Origin: a virus
Direction: 5' to 3' (one strand)
DNA length: 56,269 nt
IMG/VR virus record: IMGVR_UViG_3300008108_000165
Span: 1-56,269 of that record
Of this stretch, positions 38,420 to 56,235 are shown piece after piece. Position 1 is the first letter of the stretch; every line of letters starts with the position of its first letter. The notes under the pieces were generated by a model. It was not told the DNA's origin and ran no database searches. It saw nothing but the letters and a program-made list of their open reading frames with translations. The translations under genes and the position numbers were made by a program.

Positions 38420-38948
38420 AGAATTAAATATAAAACAAAAAACAAGAATAGGATCAGGTACATACAAGGATGTATATGATCTAGAAACATACCCTGGTTT
38501 TGTTGCTAAAATATTTAGTCCATTAGAAAATGAAGTAGTATACGACGTACAAGAAGAAGAAGAAAAAAGTAAAAAATATCCTGAATTGTTTACCCAAATT
38601 AAAAAAGTAGACTATAAAAAAGGATATATGGTTCAAGAAAAAGTTAATGTTGATTCTTTTAGAAATGATGTTGATAAACTTAAAGAAGAAATAATGTTTG
38701 AAGCTCCTAGTTTTAAACCAATAGATATTGTTTTTTATTTGTTTCGTCACTTAAGAGATAATAATAAAGAAGCTATAAAAGTTATTAAAGATATTTTAAA
38801 AGATAACAATAATAAAAAATTTTACAATAAATTAATTACATATTTATCTAAGTTATCTAAAGTTAAAAGAGAGATGTATGGAGTAGATGTACATAGAGAA
38901 AATTTTGGATATGATAAACAAGGTAATATAAAAATGTTTGATATATAA
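38409..38948 (+). CDS. Protein-kinase-like fold protein
   Basis: 179 residues. RIGSGTYKDVYDLE gives a glycine-loop-like start, VAKIF a beta-3 lysine, and GVDVHRENFGYDKQGNIKMF followed by DI ends with the D-x-H-x-x-N catalytic loop and a final Asp like the DFG Asp. It stops right after that Asp, so it is a minimal N-lobe plus catalytic-loop kinase lacking the rest of a C-lobe. Could phosphorylate a host factor, or be a pseudokinase bound to the virion. Overlaps genes on both sides. Confidence 0.6.
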   Translation: MIFKELNIKQKTRIGSGTYKDVYDLETYPGFVAKIFSPLENEVVYDVQEEEEKSKKYPELFTQIKKVDYKKGYMVQEKVNVDSFRNDVDKLKEEIMFEAPSFKPIDIVFYLFRHLRDNNKEAIKVIKDILKDNNNKKFYNKLITYLSKLSKVKREMYGVDVHRENFGYDKQGNIKMFDI

Positions 38949-41185: not shown

Positions 41186-42689
41186 ATGAAAGTAAATGAA
41201 ATAGATGTATTTAGTAAAAAATGGTGGGAGGAGAAATTACAATTAAATGAATCTCCTCCCAATAATTTTGAAAATGACAATAATCACCAATATGTTGAGG
41301 ATAATTTAAGTGCCTTAAACAAAACGGCTTTAATATTTAATTTCCCAGTAGAGGATCTACAGTTAGCTTTTAACGGTGCTTCTGATTTAGTACTAACAGA
41401 TGATGTTTGGTCTAAATTAGAAAATAGTAATTCATATAATATTCAAAGTTTAGGACAAGCTTTGTTATACGCTAAAGAAAATAAAATAGATACTGTTCCA
41501 TATTTAAAAGCTATTAAAAATTTAGAACCACTACCTAAAGCATTAATATTAAATTATGATAGTGATAAATACTATTTAGTAAATGGTGAATTTGTATTGT
41601 CTTTGCACAAAGCATTAAAACATTATATGGGTATATGCTGGAGATAGAAATACAGCAGATATATTTAGAACACTAGCACATGAATTAATCCATCGTAAAC
41701 AAGAAGAAGACGGTAAGATAAATTACGAAAGTGGTGAAACAGGTAGTGATATTGAAAATGAAGCTAATGCTAAAGCCGGTGTGTTTTTAAGAGACTTTGG
41801 AAAAAAGTATGATGGTATATATGATACTCCTATAAAGAAATTTATTAAAGGTAACATAAATGAAGTAAAAATTCAACCAGCTGGTATTAATTTTACTTTC
41901 CCATTTTGGATTACTAAACAAAATAAATCACAAGCTCCTTTTATAGCGGATCAACTTAATAAACAAGGATATACGTTGAAAGGTGATAAATTCACAGAAG
42001 AAGATATTACATTTAATATTCCTACAATATTAGATTACGACAGCAATTATAGAGACCAACCAGAAAGAAAAATATTAAATACATACTCTCCATCAAGTGA
42101 AGTTAAAATTCAACCGCCACTTACTTATAAAAAAGCATATGGTGAAGTTCATTCATACAATGAAATGAAAAAATGGCAAGAACAAAATGGCGAATTACCT
42201 AGCCACTTTTTAGTAGATCGTACTAATAACACAGTATTAGCTGGTTTTCAAGCTATGAATATTCCTAAATGGGCATGGGATTTACAAAATGATAATAATA
42301 TGTTTGCTTTAGCATCTAAATCATCTATAACAAATCCACCACCTTATTTAAATAATCCTAATATAGATGTAACTAACCCGGCTTCATGGGGTGATATAAA
42401 TAAAGTTAAAAAATACATAAAAAATAATGTAAATGAAGTAAAAATTAAAAATCCTGTTGTTGATTTAGACCAAAAAATAAAAGATATAGCTGATAATATT
42501 ATTGATTATATAGAATTTTTATATGATAGGGGTGATAAAATTGAGTCTAACAAATTAAGTGAAACCATGGATAATATTGAAAGAGCGTATAAATTCGATT
42601 ATTCTGATTTATCCTTAAAAAACATGAACTTTAAAAAGAAAATAGAACTTTATAAAGAACTTAAAGATATACAAGAAGAATTAAAATAA
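41186..42689 (+). CDS. Zinc metalloprotease-like protein, disrupted by a +1 frameshift
   Basis: The first frame (41186-41647, 153 aa) and the second (open from about 41629 to 42689) together read one protein of about 500 residues. The join is at a GGG run (41629-41631); dropping one G gives HYMVYAGDRNTADIFRTL, then AHELIH, a HExxH zinc site absent from the first frame. The N-terminus carries a leader ending LQLNE. Later, INEVKIQP and VNEVKIKN repeat a cleavage-like INE|V unit. Could be natural decay, a programmed shift or an assembly indel. Confidence 0.6.
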
Positions 42690-42695
42690 ATAGTT

Positions 42696-43283
42696 ATGAA
42701 TAATGAATCGTTATTAAAAAAAGAATTTAAAGGTAAAGATGTACAGCGAATGCGTAACATCATTACCAAGAACTATACAGATAAAACAACAACACAAATA
42801 GGTTATACTAAAGAACAAGTAGATCATAAAGAAGGTGATGTATGGGAAGAAAATGGTAAAACATGGACTATCAAAAATGGTATAAAAATGACCATAACTA
42901 AACTAGATTTAGTTAAAAGTACACTACAAATGCCACTGACTTGCCCAGAATGTAAACGAGCAATGAATAAAGGCCGTTTAGATAAGCATATGTATGGTAT
43001 CCATAAAAAGTGTTCTGATTGCGTTATATCGCATGAAACCGAGCTAAAACGCACAGGTAAATTTGAGGAATACCAAAAGTCTATACTATCTCGAGGTGTT
43101 GAATACCATATCAAGGAAATGGAAGATATTCTATTGGAATTATCATTAGGAATAAACGAAGGATCGTTCGTAACTGAAAACGGTGATATCGAGGAATGGA
43201 AAGGTAAAGGTATAGATGAGCAAGAAATAATCAAAGATATACAGGAATATATACAAAAATTGAAAGATAGTATGGTTTCTTAA
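42696..43283 (+). CDS. Zinc-finger phage protein
   Basis: 195 residues. TCPECKRAMNKGRLDKHMYG, then IHKKCSDC contains CxxC with a following H...H and CxxC, a C2H2/ribbon-like metal site. FKGKDVQRMRNIITKNYTDK and QVDHKEGDVWEENGKTWTIK form a conserved start I recall from large phages. Probably DNA- or protein-binding; function unknown. Confidence 0.65.
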   Translation: MNNESLLKKEFKGKDVQRMRNIITKNYTDKTTTQIGYTKEQVDHKEGDVWEENGKTWTIKNGIKMTITKLDLVKSTLQMPLTCPECKRAMNKGRLDKHMYGIHKKCSDCVISHETELKRTGKFEEYQKSILSRGVEYHIKEMEDILLELSLGINEGSFVTENGDIEEWKGKGIDEQEIIKDIQEYIQKLKDSMVS

Positions 43284-43290
43284 TATTTAT
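43282..43290 (+). promoter_or_regulatory. AATATTTAT late-type motif
   Basis: 4 nt before the ATG at 43295; overlaps the preceding stop. Confidence 0.6.
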
Positions 43291-43294
43291 TACT

Positions 43295-43537
43295 ATGATT
43301 AAATTAGCTAACATATTAAGCGAAGACTACGGTGGTAAAGGTGAAATGGTTTTACCTCCAAACCATAAAGCCGGTTTAAAAGTACCTAAAGGCGGTTCAT
43401 GTTGTGCTAATTGCAAGTGGTGGAACCCAGAACAACAAATATGTAATAGTAAATATTATCAAGAATGGGCCGGTACTAACACTATTCCATACGCTGCTGA
43501 TGAATATTGTACTAATTGGTGGGAACCTATAAAATAA
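43295..43537 (+). CDS. Small four-cysteine, HiPIP-like protein with (L/I)xE leader
   Basis: 80 residues. After a leader IKLANILSE the protein has GGSCCANCKWWNPEQQICNS and, near the end, AADEYCTNWWEP. The C-x2-C...C...C spacing with flanking tryptophans resembles high-potential iron-sulfur proteins or a small zinc fold. The ILSE|D leader suggests packaging in the head. Cofactor not proven. Confidence 0.6.
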   Translation: MIKLANILSEDYGGKGEMVLPPNHKAGLKVPKGGSCCANCKWWNPEQQICNSKYYQEWAGTNTIPYAADEYCTNWWEPIK

Positions 43538-43539
43538 CC

Positions 43540-43548
43540 AATATTTAT
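43540..43548 (+). promoter_or_regulatory. AATATTTAT late-type motif
   Basis: 4 nt before the ATG at 43553. Confidence 0.6.
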
Positions 43549-43552
43549 AAGC

Positions 43553-43966
43553 ATGATTAAATTATTAGACATATTAAACGAAATGCTAACTGAAAAGAAG
43601 CTATGCCCTAAAGGTAAAGCTTACTATAATCGTCGTATAGCTGCTGGTGAAAAACCATCAGCCTATTTATCAGGACGAGCAGTTAAAGTATGTAAAGGTT
43701 TAATGGAAGAAGATGACTTAGATCTACATGAATCATTACGCGATTGGTTTGAAAAAGAAGATTGGGTGCGCATTGACACAGCAGGTAATATTACAGGTCC
43801 TTGCGGTACAATGAAAAAAGGTAATAAAACAACACGTTGTTTACCTCGTGCTAAGGCAAATAGCTTAACTAAAGCAGAACGCGCTGCTACTTCACGAAAG
43901 AAAGCAGCATCAAATAAACAATTTGTTCCTAACACTAAAAAAGCTAAAGTAAGGCTGAACAAATAA
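43553..43966 (+). CDS. Basic DUF5872-like protein with (L/I)xE leader
   Basis: 137 residues. The leader IKLLDILNEMLTEK contains two candidate LxE sites. Then KGKAYYNRRIAAGEKPSAYL, and a second unit LRDWFEKEDWVRIDTAGNIT with GPCGT, which I associate with DUF5872. The C-terminus is strongly basic (TKKAKVRLNK), as expected for DNA-bound internal head proteins. Confidence 0.65.
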   Translation: MIKLLDILNEMLTEKKLCPKGKAYYNRRIAAGEKPSAYLSGRAVKVCKGLMEEDDLDLHESLRDWFEKEDWVRIDTAGNITGPCGTMKKGNKTTRCLPRAKANSLTKAERAATSRKKAASNKQFVPNTKKAKVRLNK

Positions 43967-43969
43967 AAT

Positions 43970-44389
43970 ATGAAAACAATAAAATTAAAACAACTTATCC
44001 GTAATGTAATTAACGAAGCTTTCTTTATAGGCGAAGACGATATAGATGAATACGATGTTGAAAATGAACAAGATATAAAAGAATTTGTTCAATTCATGCG
44101 TGAATATCAACAAGAACTAAACGAAGCAGATTGTGATTGCATGTTGGAAGCTAAATACCAAGGTCGCACAGTACCTTTAGGTAAACCAATGCGTGGTGAT
44201 AGTAAGAAGTTTAAAGTATATGTTAAAAATCCTAAAACGGGCAAAGTAGTTAAGGTTAACTTTGGCGCCAAAGGAATGAATATAAAAAAGAACAACCCAG
44301 TTAGACGTAAAGCATTTAGAGCTAGACATAACTGTGACAACCCAGGACCACGTACTAAAGCTAGATACTGGAGTTGTCGCAAATGGTAA
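43970..44389 (+). CDS. Basic conserved phage protein with (L/I)xE leader
   Basis: 139 residues. Leader KTIKLKQLIRNVINE, an acidic spacer, then the conserved domain YQGRTVPLGKPMRGDSKKFK, VYVKNPKTGKVVKVNFGAKG and RARHNCDNPGPRTKARYWSC followed by RKW. This highly basic domain is widespread in large phages of aquatic bacteria. Packaging in the capsid with DNA is plausible. Confidence 0.65.
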   Translation: MKTIKLKQLIRNVINEAFFIGEDDIDEYDVENEQDIKEFVQFMREYQQELNEADCDCMLEAKYQGRTVPLGKPMRGDSKKFKVYVKNPKTGKVVKVNFGAKGMNIKKNNPVRRKAFRARHNCDNPGPRTKARYWSCRKW

Positions 44390-44400
44390 TGTATTAATAT

Positions 44401-47106
44401 ATGGACCCTGACAGTAAAAATAAAATTAATGACCTGGAGAAAAAAGTTTTTAAGCAACCTAGCAACATTCTGCCTAATGGCGGCGATGTTTTTCAATCCT
44501 CTTGGATTCGACATATTATTCAAACTAGTAATGACGTTGACAGGTTCCTATTGGATTACGGATTTGCTTTTTTACCTAGCTGCGGGGTTATTTCTTGGAT
44601 TATATTTCTTATTGCGGATGAAGATATAAAAAAAGCTATTGAAACTTTTGATACCAAATTTAAACAGGATCCTAATGTAACTGAAAAAGATTTAAGAAAA
44701 TACTCTTTAACCCAACTATTAAAATTAATTTCAGCTAAACCTGGTTTTGAAAAAGGAACAGCAGAAAAAAAGATTGAAACTACTCCTGATATGGTTTATA
44801 ATGAGGATGGTATAATCATATACAGTGGTGATGTTGAAGATAAATGTATAAAATATGGGGCTGGGGAAAGATGGTGTATTACTAAAGGATCCTATGGTAA
44901 TTATAGATTTGATCCTAGACGAGGTTATCCTATATTCTATTTAGTAAGAAACACTAACCTACCCAATAGTGATCCTCTTAGTTTTGTTGCTATTCAGGTT
45001 AGAAATGATGGACAGTATGTTTACACTAATCGTTTAAATAACCCACATGAATCCGAGGAAATGTCATTTGATGAGTTAGAAAATGAGATTCCTTATTTAA
45101 GCTCAATAGAAAATTTAAAAGGTATTCTTAAATATATCCCACCTAACATAAAGGAAAAAAATAAAGAACAAAAATTTAAGAATGGTATACCATTCAATGA
45201 ATGGTCTAATGATTTAGATTTTAATGATAAAAAACTTTATTTATCTATAAGAGGTCCTATAGTAACAAAGGAAGGTGAATATTATAACAGAGGTCAACTA
45301 TTTAGTAATTTATCTACTGAAGCTTTTGTAACTAAAGTTCTTCCTAAATATGATAAGTTAACTGAATGGTTATTTCAAAACCCATGGATATTTCGTTTTA
45401 ATATTCTATTAAATAATATAGAATTATTTAAACCACCATACCAAAAATCATTATTAGCTAAAGTAAATAGTCCTGGTCATCCTATAAACGTTACTGGTGA
45501 AGATATATTAGGTAGAAAATTTGATTTTAATATTAGTAAAATATTAGTTAATACTAATAAAATACCTAATAGCAAAGAATATAATTTTTATGTAACTGAA
45601 AACGGAAATGCTATAGTAAATATAGGATATGATAGAACTGGAGTGGAGGTAGATGTCATTACTGAAGATGAAACATATAAAGATATTAAATTATCAAAAA
45701 GAACCCAAAAATATTTATTTGATTTTCCCGGAATAGTTAATATACCGTTAGATTCATTAGCTCGTGCTATACAAGTTAATGATTTAGATAGTGATAAGAT
45801 TACAGATGTAATAGATGCTGCTAGAAAATCTAATGATACTTCAAAGAAAATTATAAAAGTAGGTAATACCGAGGTACTTTTTGATACATCAGGTAACCTA
45901 TTAAAAACATATCAAATTGAAAATAATAGTATTAAACCCGTTGATAAAGATAATGAAGATGTAATTAAAGCTACAAATCAATTTATTGAAGATGCTAGTT
46001 CAAATGAAGAAATACAAGATAATTTAGTATCCTCTATTTTAAGTAGAAGACCAATGTTTAATAACGAAATTTCATCAAAGATATTAGCAAATACCCCTAA
46101 AGATAAATTAACTAGAGGTTTAGAAGGTGTAGTTTCTTACAATAATAATTTATATTCTTTTGTTCTTCCTGAAAGTTTTGAATTTAAAGGATATAAAGCA
46201 ATAAATGGAAGAATGACAGACACATCGCTAGGCAATAACCCAGAAATGGGAGTCGCTTATAGAGAATTCTTAAAAAACAATAACGTAGAATTAACTAACA
46301 ATATGATTACTAACTTGTTTGAAAGAAATAGATGGAGAACACCTTATTCTACTAAATTAACATTTGCTAGTACTCCTGATTTACCATACGCTGAAGGTTC
46401 TACATATAGATTAGTAGTTAATGATGGTAAAATATACATTGTAAATACAGCAAACCCAGCTGAAAGCTTTAGAATTTCAGAAAAAACAGGAAGAATATTG
46501 TCAGCTAGACCTCCTAGATCAACAACACCTCGCCCAACACCAGCTCAATTAGGAGCAGGTGAACGAGTACCTATAGCTGGAGCTGGAAGAAGAGGAAGAC
46601 CAGTTGGAGGAACTAATAGACCTATTGAAGGTAACATAAGTGATGATTTAACTACTACTTTAACAAATAGTAATTTATTAGATTCATTTAACCAATTACC
46701 TATCAATATTCGCTCTAGATTCTTTGGTGATTCAACTAGAGGAAATTTACGTAATGATAGAGGAGTATCACGCCGCGATAACCTATTAGGTAATTTAGGT
46801 CACGTTGATTATGTAAGAATAGTAGGTCCAAGCGCTATATATGGTATCCAATTAGAATCAGGAAACGTAGTAGCTTCATTAGTAGCTCAACCAGGTAATA
46901 GCCACTGGTTATTAACTCAAAACGGAGCATTCCAATTAGATAGTCCAGCTAACTTGGTAGACGCATTAAGACAACGTAACTTAACGGAAATGCGCGATTA
47001 TATAGTTAATGAATATATAGAGCGTAGTCCTGAAAATATTGATGAATTAAAGGACACCATTAGAAAACATATTTTAAAGAAGCCATTGCTGATCGTATCA
47101 AAATGA
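44401..47106 (+). CDS. Long WC-domain phage protein, start uncertain
   Basis: Open for 901 codons from 44401. Convincing protein begins at about 44616 (ADEDIKKAIETFDTKFKQDP). The block YGAGERWCITKGSYGNYRF parallels YGYGTKWCTS in the protein at 8693. Middle and C-terminal parts are beta/alpha with a Pro/Arg/Gly-rich linker (RPPRSTTPRPTPAQLG). The first 75 codons overlap a better hydrophobic ORF, so the N-terminus may be lost or misframed. The C-terminus carries a possible -1 frameshift signal (see findings). Confidence 0.6.
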   Translation: MDPDSKNKINDLEKKVFKQPSNILPNGGDVFQSSWIRHIIQTSNDVDRFLLDYGFAFLPSCGVISWIIFLIADEDIKKAIETFDTKFKQDPNVTEKDLRKYSLTQLLKLISAKPGFEKGTAEKKIETTPDMVYNEDGIIIYSGDVEDKCIKYGAGERWCITKGSYGNYRFDPRRGYPIFYLVRNTNLPNSDPLSFVAIQVRNDGQYVYTNRLNNPHESEEMSFDELENEIPYLSSIENLKGILKYIPPNIKEKNKEQKFKNGIPFNEWSNDLDFNDKKLYLSIRGPIVTKEGEYYNRGQLFSNLSTEAFVTKVLPKYDKLTEWLFQNPWIFRFNILLNNIELFKPPYQKSLLAKVNSPGHPINVTGEDILGRKFDFNISKILVNTNKIPNSKEYNFYVTENGNAIVNIGYDRTGVEVDVITEDETYKDIKLSKRTQKYLFDFPGIVNIPLDSLARAIQVNDLDSDKITDVIDAARKSNDTSKKIIKVGNTEVLFDTSGNLLKTYQIENNSIKPVDKDNEDVIKATNQFIEDASSNEEIQDNLVSSILSRRPMFNNEISSKILANTPKDKLTRGLEGVVSYNNNLYSFVLPESFEFKGYKAINGRMTDTSLGNNPEMGVAYREFLKNNNVELTNNMITNLFERNRWRTPYSTKLTFASTPDLPYAEGSTYRLVVNDGKIYIVNTANPAESFRISEKTGRILSARPPRSTTPRPTPAQLGAGERVPIAGAGRRGRPVGGTNRPIEGNISDDLTTTLTNSNLLDSFNQLPINIRSRFFGDSTRGNLRNDRGVSRRDNLLGNLGHVDYVRIVGPSAIYGIQLESGNVVASLVAQPGNSHWLLTQNGAFQLDSPANLVDALRQRNLTEMRDYIVNEYIERSPENIDELKDTIRKHILKKPLLIVSK
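44429..44629 (+). CDS. Small membrane protein (66 aa)
   Basis: TWRKKFLSNLATFCLMAAMF then FNPLGFDILFKLVMTLTGSY and LLFYLAAGLFLGLYFLL: two clear spans with a polar middle, a pattern I recall from other large phages. It overlaps the first part of the 901-codon frame; both cannot be ordinary genes over this stretch. This one looks more protein-like. Confidence 0.55.
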   Translation: MTWRKKFLSNLATFCLMAAMFFNPLGFDILFKLVMTLTGSYWITDLLFYLAAGLFLGLYFLLRMKI

Positions 47107-47516
47107 TAGATGAAGCTGGTGATATTGCTGCTTTAGAAGCAAAAATCAGAAAAGTAGAAGAAGATATCAAAGATGCTATGGCGGTTAAAGCGTCATTAAC
47201 CTCTATGGAAGGTCTAAAATACTATGTTAACCCAGAAATCATCAGTGATATGATGGATGATATGGAAGCTAGTATTAAAGAATTACAAACCAAGAAAAAA
47301 GATCTAGAAGACCAGAAAAAAGCAATGGATAAAAATTCTAAAGGTCCTAAAAAGTCTGAAAAAAAAGAAGATAAAAAAGAAGTAAATGAGCGTAAATTAA
47401 CTACTAAAGAAAAAAACAAAAAAGAAAAAGTAGTTAAATCGATGAAAAAAGATTTTGGAGGATCTAAGTCTGATATGTACGCTATAGCTACTAGCGTTGC
47501 TAAAAAATCAAAATAA
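47103..47516 (+). CDS. Coiled-coil protein, possibly expressed by frameshift or coupling
   Basis: 137 residues from ATG at 47103 (ATGA overlap). Upstream codons in this frame read ILKEAIADRIKM before the Met, a likely true N-terminal extension ending in LKE|A. Body: coiled coil (AALEAKIRKVEEDIKDAM, ASIKELQTKKKDLEDQKK) and a very basic C-terminus ending GGSKSDMYAIATSVAKKSK. Related phage proteins start with such leaders. Confidence 0.6.
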   Translation: MIDEAGDIAALEAKIRKVEEDIKDAMAVKASLTSMEGLKYYVNPEIISDMMDDMEASIKELQTKKKDLEDQKKAMDKNSKGPKKSEKKEDKKEVNERKLTTKEKNKKEKVVKSMKKDFGGSKSDMYAIATSVAKKSK

Positions 47517-47517
47517 T

Positions 47518-47868
47518 ATGGACTCTATAAAAAGAATGCAGCGATTAGCTGGTTTACTAACAGAATCATTAGATCCTGTAGGTAAAGAAGATGCGGATAT
47601 AGATAATGACGGTGATACAGATAAAACAGATAAGTATTTACTTAAACGCCGTAAAGCAATATCTAAAAACCTTAAAGAAGGCGACCATGAAGTATCTATG
47701 GCTCAGAATAGCTTAGAGGCAATAGCTAAAGCAGCAATGGAATTATCTCAAAAGATAGGAAATGTAGAGCGCAATATACCAGGTTGGATTCAAGACCATA
47801 TAACAAATGCTGAAAATTACATTGAGCAAGCCGCTCAAGGTTTTCATGAACTAAAAGATGATGAATAA
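47518..47868 (+). CDS. EF-hand-like phage protein with (L/I)xE leader
   Basis: 116 residues from ATG at 47518. Leader DSIKRMQRLAGLLTE, then DADIDNDGDTDKTDKYLLKR, an EF-hand/dockerin-type calcium loop (DxDxDG). EGDHEVSMAQNSLEAIAKAA and NIPGWIQDHITNAENYIEQA are family hallmarks from large phages. Probable packaged protein, calcium binding inferred. Confidence 0.65.
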   Translation: MDSIKRMQRLAGLLTESLDPVGKEDADIDNDGDTDKTDKYLLKRRKAISKNLKEGDHEVSMAQNSLEAIAKAAMELSQKIGNVERNIPGWIQDHITNAENYIEQAAQGFHELKDDE

Positions 47869-48412
47869 AACATTATTATTAGAAAAATATATTAAGAAAG
47901 CTGTTCGTATGGCCTTAAAGGAAGAAGAACAGCAACAAAAACGAGCTGAGAAAGCGATGTACTTTATACATCGTTTTCCTGGTTTGAAAAAAACACTAGA
48001 AGAACTAATGTCTCCTGCTTTTGGAAGGTATATATCTGATGTCTCTTTAATAGCACCTAAACCTACTACATTTGGTATAGGACTAATTAATGGACAAGAT
48101 TTTACAGTAACATATTTAGGAAAAAATAATTTTTCTGTAAAAGTATCAGGTAAAAAATATAATCCTATTAATATAGGAGAATCTGAAAGAGCATCACAAG
48201 CAATAGCTGATTTACTTGAATTAAATTATGCTCCTAAAGAGTCTACAGAAGAATTAGCATCTCAACGTGATGCCGATATTAAAGCCGATCTAGAAGGAGG
48301 AAGTACACCTCCATCTATTCCTACACCACCTTCTCCTGGAGAAACACCAACCCCTGAAGAAGAACCTACCCCAGAAGAAACACCAACTCCTGAAGAAGAA
48401 CCTGCTGCTTAA
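47858..48412 (+). CDS. Putative internal protein with Pro-Glu repeat tail
   Basis: 184 residues. Leader NKTLLLEKYIKKAVRMALKE, a central alpha/beta domain (FGIGLINGQDFTVTYLGKNN), and a tail of TPTPEEEP-like repeats that is probably disordered. Overlaps the previous gene by 11 nt. Internal head role inferred from the leader. Confidence 0.6.
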   Translation: MMNKTLLLEKYIKKAVRMALKEEEQQQKRAEKAMYFIHRFPGLKKTLEELMSPAFGRYISDVSLIAPKPTTFGIGLINGQDFTVTYLGKNNFSVKVSGKKYNPINIGESERASQAIADLLELNYAPKESTEELASQRDADIKADLEGGSTPPSIPTPPSPGETPTPEEEPTPEETPTPEEEPAA

Positions 48413-48422
48413 AATTTGGGTA

Positions 48423-48446
48423 GGTAAAAAATAAGTTATATATTTA
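48423..48446 (+). promoter_or_regulatory. Weak early-type promoter
   Basis: GGTAA, 15 nt, TTTA, before the exonuclease gene; both boxes are imperfect. Confidence 0.45.
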
Positions 48447-48459
48447 AAAAAAAACACTT

Positions 48460-49197
48460 ATGAGTAAGATCAAAAGACTCTTTTTTGATATTGAAACTAG
48501 TCCTAATATTGGATTATTTTGGACAGCTGGTTATAAACTAAGTATAGGTCACGACAATATTATAAAAGAACGAGCAATCATATGCATTTGTTATAAATGG
48601 GCAGATGAAAAAGAAGTTCATTCATTGACATGGGACGCTAAACAAAATGACAAAAATTTATTAGAAAAATTCATTAAAATAGCTAATGAAGCTGATGAAT
48701 TAGTAGGACATAATGGAGACAAATATGACTTACCTTGGGTTAGAACTAGATGTTTATATCACGGTATTGATTTATTTCCTACTTATACCACTATAGATAC
48801 TTTAAAGTATGCGCGTTCTAAATTCAAATTTAATAGCAATAAACTCGATTATATCGCGCAATTTTTAGGCTTAGGAGCCAAAATCAGCACAGGGTTTAAC
48901 TTATGGAAAGACATTGTTTTAAACAAAGATAAAAAAGCAATGGATCAAATGGTTGAATATTGTAAAGGTGATGTAATTTTATTAGAAAAAGTATATAATA
49001 AACTAGCACCCCATTTTCCTGAAAAAACACACGTTAGTGAAGATAAAACAGATTGCCCTACATGCGGCTCAAGCAAATGGTCATTCTCTAAACGCAGAAT
49101 GTCAGCATTAGGAACAGTTCGTGTACAAATGCAGTGTAAAAAATGTGGCCGTTATCATACAGTGTCTGAAAAAATATATGAATCTGTAACAGCATAA
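48460..49197 (+). CDS. DnaQ-like 3'-5' exonuclease with zinc ribbon
   Basis: 245 residues. RLFFDIETSPNIGLFW gives the DxE of exonuclease motif I; ELVGHNGDKYDLPWVRTRCL is motif II with the conserved Asp; MVEYCKGDVILLEKVY fits motif III (Y...D). The C-terminus has CPTCGSSKW and CKKCGRYH, a zinc ribbon. A DNA/RNA exonuclease or proofreading-like enzyme of the RNase H superfamily. Confidence 0.8.
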   Translation: MSKIKRLFFDIETSPNIGLFWTAGYKLSIGHDNIIKERAIICICYKWADEKEVHSLTWDAKQNDKNLLEKFIKIANEADELVGHNGDKYDLPWVRTRCLYHGIDLFPTYTTIDTLKYARSKFKFNSNKLDYIAQFLGLGAKISTGFNLWKDIVLNKDKKAMDQMVEYCKGDVILLEKVYNKLAPHFPEKTHVSEDKTDCPTCGSSKWSFSKRRMSALGTVRVQMQCKKCGRYHTVSEKIYESVTA

Positions 49198-49205
49198 TAT
49201 TTATT

Positions 49206-49230
49206 GGCAAAGTAATTTTATTACCTTTAT
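49206..49230 (+). promoter_or_regulatory. Early promoter next to a late-type motif
   Basis: GGCAA, 15 nt, TTTAT; AATATTTAT lies immediately upstream at 49196-49204, so this gene may have both promoter kinds. Confidence 0.65.
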
Positions 49231-49241
49231 AAAAAAGTAAA

Positions 49242-49679
49242 ATGAACCGCACAACACTACGCACACTAATAAAAGAGGCTATTCGTAAAACTCTTAAAGA
49301 ACAAGAAGATTTAACCCCTATAGACCCAGGACCTGGACAAGAGCCAGCAAATGTTCCTACTTCAGATGAAGCACCATCTGAAGCTGAAACTCCTGAAGCA
49401 CCATCAGGAAATATCAGCAAAGAAGAAGCTAAACAGTTGGTTAAAGGTACTAAAGGTAAATTTTTTACTGTTACATTTATTAAAAAAGATGGAACAGAAC
49501 GAGTAATGAATGCTCGTTTAGGTGTTAAAGCTTATCTTAAAGGCGGTGATTTACCATATAACCCAGATGAAAAAGGATTAATTCCTGTATATGATATGAA
49601 AAATGGTGGTTATAGAATGGTAAACGTTAATACCATTAAAAAATTAAAAATAGGTAATAACGAATATAACGTACAATAA
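49242..49679 (+). CDS. SH3-like phage protein with (L/I)xE leader
   Basis: 145 residues. Leader NRTTLRTLIKEAIRKTLKE is the clearest example of the shared helix. A Pro/Glu/Ser linker leads to a small beta-barrel-like domain (GKFFTVTFIKKDGTERVMNA, then GYRMVNVNTIKKLKI) seen in many phages. Probably packaged; function unknown. Confidence 0.65.
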   Translation: MNRTTLRTLIKEAIRKTLKEQEDLTPIDPGPGQEPANVPTSDEAPSEAETPEAPSGNISKEEAKQLVKGTKGKFFTVTFIKKDGTERVMNARLGVKAYLKGGDLPYNPDEKGLIPVYDMKNGGYRMVNVNTIKKLKIGNNEYNVQ

Positions 49680-50035
49680 TGGAGTTAGTAGGTATTTTAA
49701 AAGAAAATAAACAAATTTATTATTTAGAATTAATTCCTCTAGATAATAAAACTAAAGTTAAGGAAATAGAAAAACAAATATCTAAATTACAGGCTTTAGG
49801 AGCTAATATGAGTGCAATCGATATGAAAACTTTATATAAAAATATAAAGCGATTTTTTGTTGGGAAATATAAAGATGGTAGTGATATTCCTACACCATAT
49901 ACTGATAAAAGTGAATTATTTAACAACCAATATGATACTAAAGCTACAATATTTACTAAAGAAGAAGCAGAAAAACGCAAAGCCTTTATAGATAAGTATG
50001 TAAAAGATTGGATTGTAAATATAAAAACAGTATAA
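49679..50035 (+). CDS. Hypothetical protein
   Basis: 118 residues, one-base overlap with the previous stop. A beta-hairpin start (GILKENKQIYYLELIPL) and a charged helical rest. Not recognised. Followed by the dispersed repeat and a strong terminator. Confidence 0.55.
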   Translation: MELVGILKENKQIYYLELIPLDNKTKVKEIEKQISKLQALGANMSAIDMKTLYKNIKRFFVGKYKDGSDIPTPYTDKSELFNNQYDTKATIFTKEEAEKRKAFIDKYVKDWIVNIKTV

Positions 50036-50040
50036 CATTT

Positions 50041-50070
50041 AGACAGATTCATAGCCTGTCGCTCGTAAGA
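50041..50070 (+). repeat. 30-nt dispersed repeat, copy 2
   Basis: Identical to 21364-21393, with TAACATTTA also shared just upstream. Confidence 0.75.
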
Positions 50071-50090
50071 GATAAAATAATATGGAAGCT

Positions 50091-50118
50091 GTGGCTCCGA
50101 TCAAAAGATTGGGGCCAC
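50091..50118 (+). terminator. Strong rho-independent terminator
   Basis: 12-bp stem GTGGCTCCGATC/GATTGGGGCCAC (two G-T pairs), AAAA loop, TCTTGTTTTG. Confidence 0.85.
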
Positions 50119-50131
50119 TCTTGTTTTGAAA

Positions 50132-50156
50132 GTCAAAATAAAGATATTAAATTTAT
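50132..50156 (+). promoter_or_regulatory. Early promoter
   Basis: GTCAA, 15 nt, TTTAT, 6 nt before the FAD-protein start. Confidence 0.7.
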
Positions 50157-50162
50157 AAAATT

Positions 50163-50681
50163 ATGGATAAAAAAATAGTAATAGTAGGTAGTGGAGTAGC
50201 AGGTATTAGTGCTGCATTAAAATTAATAGATAATAACTACCCAGGAGAATTAATTACCATTATAGATAAAGGTAATGATCCTTATGTTCGTAAACCAGAA
50301 GAAGTAATGACAGGATTTGCAGGAGCTGGAGGATTCTCAGATGGTAAACTTACTTATCATACATCAATTGGTGGTCAATTAAGTAAATATTGTGGTGAAG
50401 AAAAAGCTTATGATTTAATGGATCAATCTATTGAAATGTGGAAACGCTTCCATCCAGATCCATCTAAAATAATGTACTCAAATCCACAATCTGAACCGGA
50501 TTTTATTAAACCTTATTTTGGTCTTCGTTTATTTCCTGTTTACCATATTGGTACAGATTATTTACACGAAATAGGAAAACGTTGGTATGATTATTTAGTT
50601 GATAAAGGTGTTAAATTTGTGTGGGAGACTGAGGTAGAGGATATTGACTTTGAAACTGGGGAAATAATATTAAAAGATTAA
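50163..50681 (+). CDS. FAD-dependent dehydrogenase, N-terminal half
   Basis: 172 residues. KKIVIVGSGVAGISAALKLI is a dinucleotide-binding Rossmann start, and TGFAGAGGFSDGKLTYHTSI is characteristic of the COG2509 type of FAD-dependent dehydrogenase. It ends abruptly at ETGEIILKD, where the family continues with the block found at 51806. So it is the first part of a gene split by an inserted segment. Substrate unknown. Confidence 0.75.
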   Translation: MDKKIVIVGSGVAGISAALKLIDNNYPGELITIIDKGNDPYVRKPEEVMTGFAGAGGFSDGKLTYHTSIGGQLSKYCGEEKAYDLMDQSIEMWKRFHPDPSKIMYSNPQSEPDFIKPYFGLRLFPVYHIGTDYLHEIGKRWYDYLVDKGVKFVWETEVEDIDFETGEIILKD

Positions 50682-50688
50682 TATTTAT
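50680..50688 (+). promoter_or_regulatory. AATATTTAT late-type motif
   Basis: At the very start of the insertion, before the gene at 50703. Confidence 0.55.
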
Positions 50689-50702
50689 ATTAAAACATAA
50701 TT

Positions 50703-50933
50703 ATGAAAAAATCTGAATTACAACAAATCATTAAAGAAGAAATACAAAAATCCCCTCAATATGTAGCCGACAAACTGTGGGATAAATTTAATGGAAATTT
50801 TGAAAAAATAGATAGATATATTGACGGTAAATTGTTAAAAAATATAAATAGATCTAAAATTTCTGTTGATAAAGTTGATAACATGGATAAATTTTGGAAA
50901 GAAGTATATAGATTAATATCTAATAAACTTTAA
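50703..50933 (+). CDS. Small protein with (L/I)xE-type leader helix
   Basis: 76 residues: KKSELQQIIKEEIQKSPQYV then a helical domain (LWDKFNGNFEKIDRYI). Lies inside the insertion that splits the FAD gene. It has its own late-type motif. Unknown. Confidence 0.55.
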   Translation: MKKSELQQIIKEEIQKSPQYVADKLWDKFNGNFEKIDRYIDGKLLKNINRSKISVDKVDNMDKFWKEVYRLISNKL

Positions 50934-50960
50934 TTTTCTTAGATTTTTTCTTAGATTTGT

Positions 50961-50969
50961 AATATTTAT
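50961..50969 (+). promoter_or_regulatory. AATATTTAT late-type motif
   Basis: 5 nt before the ATG at 50975. Confidence 0.55.
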
Positions 50970-50974
50970 AATCG

Positions 50975-51118
50975 ATGGGACGTATCAAAAAATATCAAAC
51001 AGAAGATGAACGTATTCTCAAACAACGAGAATATAGTAAGAAATATTACTGGTCTAATAAAGAAAAAATCGATGAAAAACTTAAACAAAAATACCACGAA
51101 AAGAAAACAAAACAATAA
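50975..51118 (+). CDS. Short basic ORF, endonuclease-associated (47 aa)
   Basis: GRIKKYQTEDERILKQREYS, then KKYYWSNKEKIDEKLKQKYH: a Lys/Tyr-rich helical stretch like the DNA-binding regions that accompany phage HNH endonucleases. Overlaps the GIY-YIG gene. May be a remnant of another mobile gene. Confidence 0.5.
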   Translation: MGRIKKYQTEDERILKQREYSKKYYWSNKEKIDEKLKQKYHEKKTKQ

Positions 51119-51809
51119 TTTTATAGTTTATATTCATATACGACCTGATATAAATGAACCATTTTATGTTGGAAAAGGAGTACCTGGAAGAGAAATTAGA
51201 ACATGTGGTAGAAATCAATACTGGCATAACATTATAAATAAAAATAATGGTGTGTTTGAACCTAAAATACTATTTGAAGGATTAACTGAAGAGGAAGCAT
51301 TGTTAAAAGAAAGAGAAATAGAATTGGATTTAAAAAATAAAGGTTATATATTAGCTAATATAGCTGAATGTGGTGTCAAAGCTGGTACTACTGGAATGAA
51401 GCATTCTAAAGAATCTAAACATAAAATGAGTGAATATTGGAAACAATATTACAATGAAAATCCTAGCCCTAAAAAAGGTATTAAGATGAGTAAGGAAAGT
51501 AGTGAGAAGAAAAGTAAGTCTATGATGGGTAAAAAAGTTAAATTAGGTGTAAAAGAATCTGATGAAACTAGAAAAAAGAAAAGTATTGGAATAAAAAACA
51601 GAGATCCTAAATGGATAGAAAAAAGAAATAAATCTATGGGTGATAAACTTAAAGATTTAAACATTTATACTTTTCAACATTTAGAAACTAAAGAAATTTT
51701 TAAAGGTACTAGAAAAGAATTTGAAAATAAATTTAATTTAAATGGTGGAAGACTTAGTCAATTAATTAATAATAAAGTTTTAAAATATAAAAATTGGATA
51801 AAAATATGA
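51072..51809 (+). CDS. GIY-YIG homing endonuclease with NUMOD repeats
   Basis: 245 residues from ATG at 51072. The catalytic domain reads FIVYIHIRPDINEPFYVGKG (GIY-YIG variant), followed by the conserved Arg and Glu regions (LLKEREIELDL). Three NUMOD3-like units follow (GMKHSKESKHKMSEYWK, GIKMSKESSEKKSKSM, GVKESDETRKKKSI), then a NUMOD1-like C-terminus (LNGGRLSQLINNK). The stop overlaps the start of the FAD C-half (ATGA). Confidence 0.85.
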   Translation: MKNLNKNTTKRKQNNNFIVYIHIRPDINEPFYVGKGVPGREIRTCGRNQYWHNIINKNNGVFEPKILFEGLTEEEALLKEREIELDLKNKGYILANIAECGVKAGTTGMKHSKESKHKMSEYWKQYYNENPSPKKGIKMSKESSEKKSKSMMGKKVKLGVKESDETRKKKSIGIKNRDPKWIEKRNKSMGDKLKDLNIYTFQHLETKEIFKGTRKEFENKFNLNGGRLSQLINNKVLKYKNWIKI

Positions 51810-52603
51810 GAAAAATAAAATTTGACACTTGTATAGTAGGTACAGGTAAAGCTGGAATAGACTTTTCAGCTAAGCTAGCTCAGAAATATAATTTACCTAC
51901 TGAGCAAAAGTCGGTCCAAATAGGCTGTAGGTTCGAGGCACCACAAAAATACTTCCAGAAATTAATTGATGTAAGTTACGATTTTAAACTATATCAAAAG
52001 TTTGACAATGTGTCGTTACGTTCATTCTGTACTAACAATAACGCGGCTTATGTAGCAGTAGAAGAAACGTATGGTGATATAACATATAATGGCCATGCTA
52101 AAAAAGGTGAAGAATTTCGCAATGACATGACTAACTTTGGCATCTTAATGGAAATTAAAGGTATTGAAAATCCATTTGAATGGTCACGAGATGTTGTTAA
52201 AAAATGTAATATAGTAGATGGTCAAACAAAGGAAAAAATAGGAGGAATATATTATTCACCAAATCAAACAAGACAACCATCTAATACCTCTGAGGGTGAA
52301 AGAGTTAAATCTCATCAAGCTCATGAACATGTATTACCTATAATAAGAGAAGCATTCGGTGGGTATTTTGAATACATTGAAAACTTCATTGACCAAATGA
52401 ATAAAGTATTCGAATTTGGTGATGATTGGGGTATGTATATTCCTGAAGTAAAATATCTATCTCCTGAACCATTAGTAAATTATAAAAACTTAGCATTAGT
52501 TGATTATCCTAACGTACACTTCGTAGGTGATGCTTTAAGTGCTCGTGGAATTACAGTATCAGGAGCGCATGGGATATATGTTGCTGAATATTTATTAGCA
52601 TGA
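51806..52603 (+). CDS. FAD-dependent dehydrogenase, C-terminal half
   Basis: 265 residues. Starts with KIKFDTCIVGTGKAGIDFSA and ends with VHFVGDALSARGITVSGAHG, then IYVAEYLLA, the flavin-binding C-terminal motif of the COG2509-type family. Together with 50163-50681 it rebuilds one full-length enzyme. The ATG is supplied at the exact end of the homing endonuclease, so the two halves may be made as separate polypeptides. Confidence 0.75.
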   Translation: MRKIKFDTCIVGTGKAGIDFSAKLAQKYNLPTEQKSVQIGCRFEAPQKYFQKLIDVSYDFKLYQKFDNVSLRSFCTNNNAAYVAVEETYGDITYNGHAKKGEEFRNDMTNFGILMEIKGIENPFEWSRDVVKKCNIVDGQTKEKIGGIYYSPNQTRQPSNTSEGERVKSHQAHEHVLPIIREAFGGYFEYIENFIDQMNKVFEFGDDWGMYIPEVKYLSPEPLVNYKNLALVDYPNVHFVGDALSARGITVSGAHGIYVAEYLLA

Positions 52604-53262
52604 AACCTGTTGCTTTAACGCTATCATCTAGGATACCATTCGGTAAATATGAAAACCGATTGGTATCCGATATATTAATATCTGACCCAAGATATCTAAA
52701 GTGGTTGTGGGTTGAGAAAAAAGCGATTGCTCCTGATACAGCATTGGAACAACGACTAAGATTAACCCCGTCAGATTTTGCGGTAGCAGGAATGAAATTA
52801 CCTAAAGCTAACTTAAAAGAAAATATGAAAGTAAAACAATTACGCGAAGCTATTCGCCAAATTATTCGTAAAGAATTAAACGAAAACCAGCCAGCTAAAT
52901 CACCAACACCTTCTCGCCCAGAACCAACTACTCTTCCTAAACCAGGAGTAGATAAACCTGATGAAAAACGCAGAAGAATAGGAAATCCAGATGTAAAACC
53001 TGCTCCTAAAAATTTAAAGGAAGAGGAAATGATAGATAAAATTACAGCTCGTTTTATGAAGGCTAAACAAATAAACGAATTGCTTACTTTAGACGATTTA
53101 GAAAAATTATCTCCGAAAAATAAGCCCGCATATACTGATGAACAAATTAGTAAGATGACATTAAAACAAGCTGAATTAGCTTTAAAAAAAGGAATATGGG
53201 ATGTACCTCAAAATAAAAAAATTAGGGCTAAATTGCTATCTAGAATTAAATCACTAAAATAA
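52600..53262 (+). CDS. DUF3820-like domain fused to a leader-type protein
   Basis: 220 residues. Residues 10-40 (RIPFGKYENRLVSDILISDP, then RYLKWLW) match the small DUF3820/exonuclease-X C-terminal-like domain. From Met 76 (KVKQLREAIRQIIRKELNE) a standard (L/I)xE leader begins, then a Pro-rich linker and a basic helical domain (ISKMTLKQAELALKKGIWDV). Either a fusion or two products, with an internal start near 52825. Confidence 0.65.
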   Translation: MKPVALTLSSRIPFGKYENRLVSDILISDPRYLKWLWVEKKAIAPDTALEQRLRLTPSDFAVAGMKLPKANLKENMKVKQLREAIRQIIRKELNENQPAKSPTPSRPEPTTLPKPGVDKPDEKRRRIGNPDVKPAPKNLKEEEMIDKITARFMKAKQINELLTLDDLEKLSPKNKPAYTDEQISKMTLKQAELALKKGIWDVPQNKKIRAKLLSRIKSLK

Positions 53263-54194
53263 TGAAAAAAAGTTTACTAGAAGTAGAATACGAAGATATA
53301 TTTAAACCTGAAACGATGGCCGCCTTAAAAGGTAAATCAGGTGAGTCATTGCGCGCTATGTTAGGTAATAAAAATCTAATGCAAACAATGATGCGTTCTC
53401 AGGAACTATTAAATCAAATTATAGCAGCTGAGTCTGATTATGAAGTAGAACAAAACGATGATGGTCCCGATGAAGATGAAGACGAAACTCCTGTAGATGA
53501 AATACCATCAACTGATACTAAAGCTATGGAGAAAAAACGCCGTATAATCAACGGTATCACCCAAGGTGCTTCAGTACGTGGAACATTCGGATTTTTATTA
53601 TTTAGAGAACATTTAGATGATTTAAACCCAGAATTAGTCGAAAAATATAACGAGATTATGAAATTAGTCTTCGGTATATATGATGACGAAAATGCAATTG
53701 CTATGTTATTAGCGGCTGTTGGTCAAAAACAAAACATATCAGGTGGTTCATCAGAAATGGTATATAACGAAGAAGATGATCAATTCATTATTAAAGCTAG
53801 AGCTATATGTTTCCCTATGTTATTCCATGAAATCGTAAAAGGATTATATGAAATCGTAGGAACAGAAGGATTTGGTTCAGATAAAGAAGCAAACAAAGCT
53901 GTAGTTAATGCTGTAGATAGAGTATCAAATGAACCTCGTGATTTTCAATATGGTAAATTTATATATGATGCTTTATCGAATCTATATAACCAAAGCAATA
54001 TAGACGATGCTAGAGTTAGAGAATTATTCTTTACAGAAGTATACAGATTAGATGATAGAGAATTTATTATGTTCATTGAAAACTTATTAAACAATAAATT
54101 AAGTCCTACCCAAAAGAAATGGGCATCTGATACAATGAGAGAAATTGAATCTGACCTAAAGAAAGATGATACTGGACTTTCTGGCTTGGATTAG
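53262..54194 (+). CDS. Conserved large-phage protein
   Basis: 310 residues. Short leader KKSLLEVEYEDIF, an acidic linker (DDGPDEDEDETPVDEIP), then a helical domain (FIIKARAICFPMLFHEIVKG, VRELFFTEVYRLDDREFIMF). I recall related proteins in marine and Bacteroidota phages as structural or unknown. One-base overlap with the previous gene. Confidence 0.6.
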   Translation: MKKSLLEVEYEDIFKPETMAALKGKSGESLRAMLGNKNLMQTMMRSQELLNQIIAAESDYEVEQNDDGPDEDEDETPVDEIPSTDTKAMEKKRRIINGITQGASVRGTFGFLLFREHLDDLNPELVEKYNEIMKLVFGIYDDENAIAMLLAAVGQKQNISGGSSEMVYNEEDDQFIIKARAICFPMLFHEIVKGLYEIVGTEGFGSDKEANKAVVNAVDRVSNEPRDFQYGKFIYDALSNLYNQSNIDDARVRELFFTEVYRLDDREFIMFIENLLNNKLSPTQKKWASDTMREIESDLKKDDTGLSGLD

Positions 54195-54231
54195 TGAAAA
54201 AAGTATATTAACTTTCGAAAAAAAGTAAGAT

Positions 54232-54474
54232 ATGACAAAAACACTAAGAACAGGAGACGGAACTATACTTTATTATAGTAACACAGATGGAGTAAATAAA
54301 CTTCACAATTGGGATGGACCAGCATTTATACCTCAAGGTAACATGAAATTAGCAGAATACTATATCTACGGTATTCAATACACTAAAGAAGATTGGATAG
54401 ATCGTAAACGAGATACTAATGGTTTACCATGGTTTAAAACAGCTATTGGTAAAACAGTAGGTGCAAGAGTTTAA
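54232..54474 (+). CDS. Small conserved phage protein (80 aa)
   Basis: LHNWDGPAFIPQGNMKLAEY, then YIYGIQYTKEDW resembles the short HREDGPA...YYxNG-type repeat proteins of phages, which form antiparallel beta units. Function unknown. Confidence 0.6.
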   Translation: MTKTLRTGDGTILYYSNTDGVNKLHNWDGPAFIPQGNMKLAEYYIYGIQYTKEDWIDRKRDTNGLPWFKTAIGKTVGARV

Positions 54475-54480
54475 AAGATT

Positions 54481-54511
54481 AGGGTCGTCAAGACCCTTTT
54501 TTTATCTTTAT
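54481..54511 (+). terminator. Merged terminator-promoter
   Basis: AGGGTC/GACCCT, loop GTCAA, T-run, TATCTTTAT; 3 nt before the next ATG. Confidence 0.8.
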
Positions 54512-54514
54512 AAC

Positions 54515-54745
54515 ATGAAACAATTCACACGAACATATACAGATGATGATGGTACTACTTATATTTGGAAATATGATCTAGACAAATTTAGTAGAGGACC
54601 AATAGAAACTACAGTCAATTATTCTAAAGAATCATTATCTGAAGGAGGAAAAACAAAAAACAATAAAATAGATCAAAAATACCTTAACCCAGCAAACGGA
54701 AAGTACGTTGGGTATGGCAGAGCAAAATCATTAGGTTTAATATAA
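54515..54745 (+). CDS. Small hypothetical protein (76 aa)
   Basis: Beta-rich start (FTRTYTDDDGTTYIWKYD), basic C-terminus (DQKYLNPANGKYVGYGRAKS). ATG at 54515 follows the -7 box by 3 nt, so probably leaderless. Unknown. Confidence 0.55.
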   Translation: MKQFTRTYTDDDGTTYIWKYDLDKFSRGPIETTVNYSKESLSEGGKTKNNKIDQKYLNPANGKYVGYGRAKSLGLI

Positions 54746-54748
54746 AAT

Positions 54749-55270
54749 ATGAAAATAGGATTAGCAGGAACAGTTAGTGTTGGTAAATCAACACTTGTAA
54801 AAGCTCTAGCAGAATTAGAGCAGTTTAAAGATTATCATGTAGCTACAGAACGTAGTAAATATTTGCGTGATCAAGGAATAGCATTAAATGATGATTCAAC
54901 AACTAAAGGTCAATTTGTATTTGCAGCTGAACGTAGTTTAGAATTAATGCATGAAAATTTATTAACTGACAGAACAATATATGATGTGTGTGCATTTACA
55001 TTAAGTGCTAAATCAATTGGTTATAATGATAAGATTAAATTAATCGAATCATTTGTTACTATAAGAAATGACTATGATTTAATAGTGTATGTATCACCTG
55101 AGGGTGTTGATATTGAAGATAACGGTGTTAGGACAACAGACGCTGAATATCGTATAAAAATAGATTTTGCTATTCGCGGATTATTAAAAGAATACCCACC
55201 AGTAAAATTAATAGAAGTTAAGGGTTCAACAGAAGAACGCATCAATTTAATACTTTCCCAAATAAACTAA
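54749..55270 (+). CDS. P-loop nucleotide kinase / NadR-like ATPase
   Basis: 173 residues. GLAGTVSVGKSTLVKAL carries a Walker A motif, VATERSKYLRDQG a lid or substrate region, and LLTDRTIYDVCAF a Walker-B-like DR site. This layout matches the AAA_28/NadR-type small kinases of phages, which phosphorylate nucleosides or nicotinamide riboside. Substrate not deducible. Confidence 0.75.
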   Translation: MKIGLAGTVSVGKSTLVKALAELEQFKDYHVATERSKYLRDQGIALNDDSTTKGQFVFAAERSLELMHENLLTDRTIYDVCAFTLSAKSIGYNDKIKLIESFVTIRNDYDLIVYVSPEGVDIEDNGVRTTDAEYRIKIDFAIRGLLKEYPPVKLIEVKGSTEERINLILSQIN

Positions 55271-55277
55271 TATTTAT
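55269..55277 (+). promoter_or_regulatory. AATATTTAT late-type motif
   Basis: Upstream of the gene at 55303; overlaps an alternative ATG at 55276. Confidence 0.5.
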
Positions 55278-55302
55278 GTATACAGAAATAAACGCAAATA
55301 TA

Positions 55303-56235
55303 ATGACCCCTAAACAAATCCGTGCTTTAGTTAAAGAAGTAATATTAGAAACAACTAATGCTATTATATCTACCAAAACAGGTACTAAAACAATCCCATA
55401 TAAAAATGCTAGCGAGTTAAATACTTTAAAAAACGATCCTAACATTAGTAGTATTGAAACTACAGGTGGTCAAAAAATTAAAGAAATGGCTCGTAAAGCT
55501 AAAGGATATCAAATTGTAGATCCTGAGTTTAACACCACCCCATATGCTAACAAAATAGTAAGTGGTGTTTCTATGGCTACCATCATTGATTATATTAAAG
55601 AAAATCCGGGTGTAGAGAAAAAAGATATACAAACACAATTTAACTTCGTACGTCCTCAAATAGCTAATGCATTGATGAATGGTCTAAAAGATGCTGGAAT
55701 TATTGCTAAAATGGGTGAAATAGCAGTGGACGATGAAACTGGAGAAGTAACAGTAACTGACGAGCCTGAAACTCCAACATCACGAGCAGGTGCTGAAGAT
55801 TTCTTTGTTGGTAATAGAACAGGTAATTTCTTTTCATCTGGTGAGCCTAGCTTAACGGATGATGAAGATGAAATGGGCATGCCTGAAGAACCAGAAATAC
55901 CTGAACTACCAGCTGAGATTCCTCAATCAATAGGAGGTATGGCCGATGAAGATTATAACGCTTGGATGGAATATTCTAAATTTAAAGAACGTTTAGCTAG
56001 AACTAAAAGTGCTTTAATGCAAGCTAAGAAAATGGGTAGAAGCAGAGATGATTTATCATCTGGGTCAGATGAAATAGAACGTTTAGCTAAATTAAAAGCA
56101 TCATTAGAACAACGTATGCAAAATGTTATTGATTCTAGCGAATATGTTAAAAATAAGATAGAACAAGAAAAAAATGCTCCATCTGAAGATGAAATAATGG
56201 AGCGCTTTCAGAAATTAGCGAATATTATAAAATGA
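55303..56235 (+). CDS. Putative internal/structural protein with (L/I)xE leader
   Basis: 310 residues if started at ATG 55303 (TPKQIRALVKEVILE leader); an upstream ATG at 55276 would add nine residues. A central winged-helix-like segment (IIDYIKENPGVEKKDIQTQF) is followed by an acidic Pro/Glu linker (MGMPEEPEIPELPAEIP) and a coiled coil. DNA binding plus packaging is plausible. Confidence 0.6.
   Translation: MTPKQIRALVKEVILETTNAIISTKTGTKTIPYKNASELNTLKNDPNISSIETTGGQKIKEMARKAKGYQIVDPEFNTTPYANKIVSGVSMATIIDYIKENPGVEKKDIQTQFNFVRPQIANALMNGLKDAGIIAKMGEIAVDDETGEVTVTDEPETPTSRAGAEDFFVGNRTGNFFSSGEPSLTDDEDEMGMPEEPEIPELPAEIPQSIGGMADEDYNAWMEYSKFKERLARTKSALMQAKKMGRSRDDLSSGSDEIERLAKLKASLEQRMQNVIDSSEYVKNKIEQEKNAPSEDEIMERFQKLANIIK

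Follow-up and report, generated by a model that had tools for sequence, protein, structure and literature searches.

Short modular N-terminal leaders, probably of the T4 capsid-targeting type and predicted to be removable, in proteins of an immuto-like phage

In phage T4, the internal proteins IPI, IPII, and IPIII carry a short N-terminal leader that is cut after (L/I)xE by the peptidase S77 prohead protease gp21. The T4 proteins gp24 and Alt are gp21 substrates, and mutagenesis of IPIII assigns targeting chiefly to residues 4 and 7 and processing to residues 8 and 10 (PMC9026906). In the giant phages phiKZ and SPN3US, a gp21-related protease cleaves many head proteins after E, and these are believed to be ejected (PMC10052503). 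In phage P1, the N-terminal capsid-targeting segment of DarB is enough to direct a protein into the head (PMC9024508), and the polyvalent proteins (Iyer et al. 2017) are predicted to be injected with ADP-ribosyltransferase (ART), GNAT, peptidase, and other domains (PMC5512222). Here, we analyze a stretch of 56,269 bases from IMG/VR virus record IMGVR_UViG_3300008108_000165 (referred to as the window), in which proteins with different bodies begin with a short amphipathic N-terminal helix that ends in (L/I)xE. These leaders probably direct the proteins to the capsid and are then removed, as in the T4 internal proteins, within an expanded and modular system. The sequences give good support to the predicted targeting and cleavage; that the cargo docks, is cut, packaged, and ejected, and has a role in the host is proposed by analogy with T4.

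Small gaps aside, the window shows 99.94-100% identity to positions 102895-159517 of G001, a 171,732-bp IMG/VR contig that contains a near-identical copy of it, and relatives are encoded on more than 300 IMG/VR stretches. The gene set (baseplate, primase, terminase, and gp20-, gp21-, and gp23-like genes) and the baseplate wedge protein of the window, with 46% identity to Flavobacterium phage immuto and 44% to Microcystis phage Mel-JY01, identify the phage by sequence as a T4-related, immuto-like myovirus. Judging from immuto, the host of this water phage is probably a member of the Bacteroidota.

The leaders quoted in the initial annotation were all found at their positions, and eight of them served as seeds for a 16-position leader model. 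In cross-validation, each of five genomes (G001, G004, G005, G006, and immuto) was tested with the model trained on the remaining four; because the seeds were taken from the window, itself a piece of G001, the other genomes provide the cleaner tests. N-terminal matches numbered 21 in G001 versus 2.1 in shuffled N-termini (maximum of 8 in 200 shuffles), 19 versus 1.3 in G004, 26 versus 1.6 in G005, 10 versus 1.1 in G006, and 11 versus 1.4 in immuto, so that the pattern is 8 to 16 times commoner than in shuffled N-termini; the density of matches inside proteins would predict 0.5 to 2.0 per genome. Mel-JY01 gave 5 matches versus 0.9 shuffled, and the unrelated Bacteroidota phage phi14:2 (Crassvirales, 30% GC) gave none versus 0.6 shuffled. 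A tblastn search of 20-residue leaders against phages returned no match, because such queries are too short for the method. In G001, 19 leader genes are late and 4 are early, compared with 96 and 158 of the other genes (Fisher P = 3.6e-5), where late denotes two arcs with virion genes whose limits are our own reading of gene content; the four early-region matches look spurious. In the window, a score above 9 with the model trained on the four other genomes was counted as support, which 11 proteins reached (20050, 26506, 43295, 43553, 43970, 47518, 47858, 49242, 49679, 50703, and 55303). The original observation holds, with at least 11 leader proteins in the window; 41186 and 53262 fall below the threshold.

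A prohead protease of the gp21 type (peptidase S77) is encoded at G001:167474-167977 (E = 1.8e-32, above the Pfam cut-off), between gp20- and gp23-like genes. It carries the PHROGs label head maturation protease, adjoins portal, terminase, and major head protein genes, and aligns with T4 gp21 at its GELDHP and GISSRG motifs. The family exceeds the Pfam cut-off in five of the nine records searched, once in each (G001 and four other long records), the remaining four being fragments, and it is annotated in immuto (as gp070) and Mel-JY01. A peptidase S77 search within the window alone gave no match, because the window ends 8 kb before this head cluster. The initial annotation had made its idea depend on such a protease in the flanking genome, and there it is encoded. 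Its comparison with T4 can now be put in numbers and alignments. The T4 gp23 propeptide cut site SFLTE/A aligns with QLVVE/A, QLVTE/A, or QIVSE/A in all five phages, the gene order is gp20-x-x-21-x-23 as in T4, and the leader model, when trained on nothing but these phages, puts the gp24 propeptide MAKINELLRE at the top of 268 T4 open reading frames (ORFs), with a score of 14.5, and Alt in third place, with 9.3.

At least three leader classes exist: class I (MIKLxxILxE, 10 residues), class II (MKKSELRQIIKE(EIxxVLNE), 12-20 residues), and class III (MKKQINEIKRMQxLAGLIxE, 16-20 residues). Class I, as in MIKLLDILNE, fits the register of IPIII with hydrophobic residues L4, I7, and L8 followed by E10, and the longer classes II and III lie outside it. 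Other starts share the ending, such as FSKxWWxxxLxLxE, MNLGQYLxxxLLE, and, in immuto, NFDLKKFLVENKLTxNSxLLKE. The leader proteins of immuto are among gp080-gp095, gp113, gp114, gp230, and gp231. The leaders can be aligned across related phages, a check that the initial annotation had proposed, and homologous bodies can carry different leaders, the exchange falling at the predicted cut after E. The body AFFIGEDDIxEYDVE stands behind MKTIKLKQLIRNVINE in the window and behind MIKLIDILNE in L132, and a body of this type, as AFYIGEDDIEEYDVE, follows MKVTELKQLIKEVIAE in L282; a homologue of the 49242 body occurs in L155 behind the class III leader MEMINEIKRMQKLAGILKE. An 870-residue protein (44401) retains LxE in eight of nine homologues, with A following in seven, while the leader itself varies. 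The protein at the gp67/68 position, in the portal-protease interval, has a leader ending in LxE and a conserved body in G001, G004, G005, G006, and immuto, and its G001 version contains a domain of about 75 residues inserted exactly at the border of leader and body. Fusions carry internal leaders (20050, with class II at the start and class III at residue 319; L011:2138; L155:4558; and 52600). An automatic junction test over all pairs with unlike leaders gave no clean result, since alignments continue into the leader where the helices are alike, and only individual swaps are cited here. At G001:34191-34924 and G001:143891-145600, LAGINE/VKI(E/Q) occurs at N-termini, and NINE/VKIQ and NVNE/VKIK occur inside the 41186 protein, which suggests internal cut sites.

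Alongside these likenesses, the system differs from T4 in encoding about 10 to 26 leader proteins per genome rather than a handful, in having several leader classes and internal leaders, and in carrying cargo largely unrelated to the T4 internal proteins. Most SPN3US propeptides comprise 111 to 254 residues and have another motif, whereas the leaders described here comprise 7 to 22 residues and are exchangeable. In DarB the signal lies within the first 30 residues. Polyvalent proteins combine many domains per chain; the proteins reported here are mostly separate and short, with one kind of tag, and multidomain cargo is limited to occasional fusions (a SET and an ART-like domain in L143; an ART-like domain and an HExxH-type motif in L160). 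Our literature search found no paper describing such a leader system for this lineage.

The leader proteins of the related loci, 387 distinct ones, fall into 112 body clusters. Once very short bodies and obvious false matches (for example, a helicase cluster in L173) were dropped, 98 body families were left, a number that varies with the threshold and with the simple way in which ORFs were called. Many families are present in one or a few relatives only. Pfam domains behind leaders include GNAT (2.9e-11), zeta toxin/P-loop kinase (8.8e-10), SET (2.6e-8), cytidylyltransferase-like (4e-5), and NT5C (4.7e-5). For proteins with the pattern YHxT...SFTRN...EER, the best PDB matches of an AlphaFold model (L227) were all Tpt1/KptA proteins of the ART fold; at E = 0.15 no individual match is significant, and the ART-like assignment is therefore suggestive. 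The putative ART-like domain begins right after LxE in L227 (LLNE), L158 (ILGE), and L160 (TLSE), and such a cargo would be in keeping with T4, whose injected Alt is an ADP-ribosyltransferase (PMC9026906, PMC5512222). Some of the body types guessed earlier from the window agree with the sequences: in its intact form, the 41186 protein carries the zincin motif HELIH, the 47518 protein has the EF-hand-like loop DIDNDGDTD, and the 43553 and 43970 proteins are basic (+15 and +11). The predicted structure of the 870-residue protein (predicted template modeling score, 0.44) gave no meaningful PDB match.

If the leaders act as in T4, cargo proteins would be made together with virion proteins, and their N-terminal amphipathic helix would dock them to the core of the prohead as it assembles. 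The leader would be cut after (L/I)xE by the S77 protease, the freed bodies would stay in the head until infection, when they would exit by way of the tail together with the DNA, and, once delivered, they may act as early host-takeover or counterdefense proteins. Packing in the head and injection had already been suggested by the initial annotation; the protease, the leader alignments, and the likeness to T4 agree with it, and presence in the head and entry into the host are proposed on the T4 model. Several observations weigh against this interpretation. P3 of the gp23 site is V and not strictly L or I, and T4 IPI, IPII, and IPIII score low with the leader model (-14 to 0.7), so that by model score there is no close sequence relation to their leaders and the detailed specificity would differ from that of T4. 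A pairwise test of site retention was weakly favorable, with few low-identity controls, and a literature search found no virion proteomics for this lineage. Finally, a leader-like helix stands on a baseplate-operon protein (26506), with its final E sometimes replaced by D.

This last helix, which is strongly conserved, would fit an explanation in which the leaders stay uncut and serve as helices that dock to one common component of the virion (core scaffold, portal, or tail hub), with LxE marking the helix end only. The amphipathic spacing of the leaders is compatible with it, and in T4 a D at position 10 permits targeting without processing (PMC9026906). We consider it quite improbable, since body exchange falls exactly after E, the gp23 cut site and the gp21-type protease are conserved, and fusions retain internal leaders at module borders. 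It is unlikely, too, that the cargo is scaffold or core material only, cut in the prohead and then discarded or inert, without delivery to the host. Although the gp67/68-position protein bears a leader and gp21 degrades T4 core proteins (PMC9026906), about 100 unrelated bodies, among them enzyme domains (GNAT, SET, zeta-like kinase, NT5C, nucleotidyltransferase, and the ART-like fold), are hard to reconcile with such a role, and their occurrence in one or a few relatives is the pattern of accessory rather than structural genes. Because N-termini rich in lysine, leucine, and glutamate are frequent in AT-rich genomes, the leaders might also be products of chance or composition, short charged helices being common in AT-rich phage proteins. 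That explanation has hardly any probability left, given that composition-keeping shuffles yield 1 to 2 matches versus 10 to 26 observed, that phi14:2 yields none at 30% GC, and that few leader genes lie in the early region.

Taking the leaders as removable targeting sequences, we lean toward the broader view that immuto-like phages run a general protein-loading platform, in which a few interchangeable tags load about 20 effectors per virion from a pool of some 100 or more families that turn over between relatives. The effectors would include ADP-ribosyltransferase-like, acetyltransferase, SET, kinase, nucleotidyltransferase, and metallopeptidase proteins. Phage-injected proteins act before any phage gene expression and are hard to find; if the view is right, the tag would identify them by sequence alone, and a sequence scan would yield a large catalogue of candidate takeover and counterdefense proteins in phages that infect Bacteroidota of fresh and marine waters. 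The T4 targeting sequence would then be a widespread modular loading system and not a peculiarity of T4.

The individual leaders of the window all lie on the plus strand. Class I comprises MIKLANILSE (43295-43324; ORF 43295-43537, 80 residues, Cys rich; score, 21.0) and MIKLLDILNE (43553-43582; ORF 43553-43966; 22.7), the body family of the latter recurring behind other class I leaders. Class II leaders are found at 20050-20109 (ORF 20050-21351, 433 residues; cross-validated score, 14.4), 43970-44017 (the MKTIKLKQLIRNVINE leader of ORF 43970-44389; 21.6), 47858-47923 (MMNKTLLLEKYIKKAVRMALKE; ORF 47858-48412; 23.6; a family of 22 distinct leader proteins), 49242-49301 (MNRTTLRTLIKEAIRKTLKE; ORF 49242-49679; 17.8), 50703-50738 (MKKSELQQIIKE; ORF 50703-50933; 19.2), and 55303-55350 (MTPKQIRALVKEVILE; ORF 55303-56235; 11.4). 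The site of the last is kept in 82% of 50 homologues, and the C terminus of this protein ends in the class III-like IMERFQKLANIIK. Class III is represented by MDSIKRMQRLAGLLTE (47518-47565; ORF 47518-47868; 21.9) and by the internal leader of ORF 20050-21351 (21004-21054), which makes this protein a fusion of two leader modules; a homologous fusion in L011:2138-4105 has the reverse order. The short leader MELVGILKE (49679-49705; ORF 49679-50035; 12.6) was absent from the original list, and a homologue carries MIKLVNIIQE. A class II leader proposed at 52825 (MKVKQLREAIRQIIRKELNE, 52825-52884) begins a separate gene in relatives (L280, L265, L258, and L272); in the window its start is an in-frame ATG, codon 76 of ORF 52600-53262. 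The helix MNVKTFKKLIKEAVAEAVREELHAILN(E) of the baseplate-operon protein (26506-26586; ORF 26506-26847) is the weakest case despite its score of 14.7, because of its operon and the D found for the final E in some homologues.

Four further candidates are truncated in the window, which, compared with G001, lacks 204 bp at 41618, 159 bp at 44616, 60 bp at 47073, and 101 bp at 53441. These gaps may be assembly collapse or real deletions; a further gap of 32 bp lies at 5740, and such gaps truncate or shift several ORFs. The 41186 protein (569 residues in G001) starts with MKVNEIDVFSKKWWEEKLQLNE (41186-41251), in which LxE is kept and P2 varies among close homologues; other homologues begin with MNLGQYLxxxLLE. 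The real N terminus of the 870-residue cargo candidate (44401-47106), MNNIHILIEYIVSNWPFLNE followed by A, is absent from the window through the gap at 44616. The candidate at 47103-47516 starts with MKLNSSLVKQLIKEAIADRIKMIDE followed by AGD in its intact G001 copy of 158 residues; it scores (10.4) only there because the window has lost its N terminus, and its homologues keep IDE or INE followed by AG. ORF 53262-54194 (344 residues in G001) has a possible 7-residue leader, MKKSLLE (53262-53282), whose LLE is kept unaltered by the listed homologues of full length.

Small kinase-like proteins (GSGxYKxVY ... ENFGY ... ending in DV or DI) are encoded in the window (38409-38948) and at L103:11346-11936 and L083:3366-3806; some have leaders, and one in the window has none. 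Window positions 50163-50681 and 51794-52603 hold two parts of an apparent FAD-dependent dehydrogenase gene, separated by leader gene 50703 and a homing endonuclease gene (51006); a search of Rfam at gathering score found no intron.

In G001, the motif (A)TATTTAT lies ahead of 22 of the 37 late genes with an upstream gap of their own, against 9 of 66 early genes (P = 3e-6); it was derived from the same data in which it was counted. Among late genes, it is present within the 50 nucleotides upstream of 9 of the 19 that encode leader proteins and of 24 of the 90 others; among early genes, this holds for 11 of 140. The TATTTAT element, ATATTTATA, is a candidate late promoter. In the window, TATTTAT starts exactly 11 nucleotides before the ATG of six ORFs, five of which are leader genes (20039, 26495, 41175, 43284, 43542, and 52589); at this distance, almost leaderless mRNAs would possibly be produced. 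Read on the opposite strand, the T4 late box TATAAATA becomes TATTTATA.

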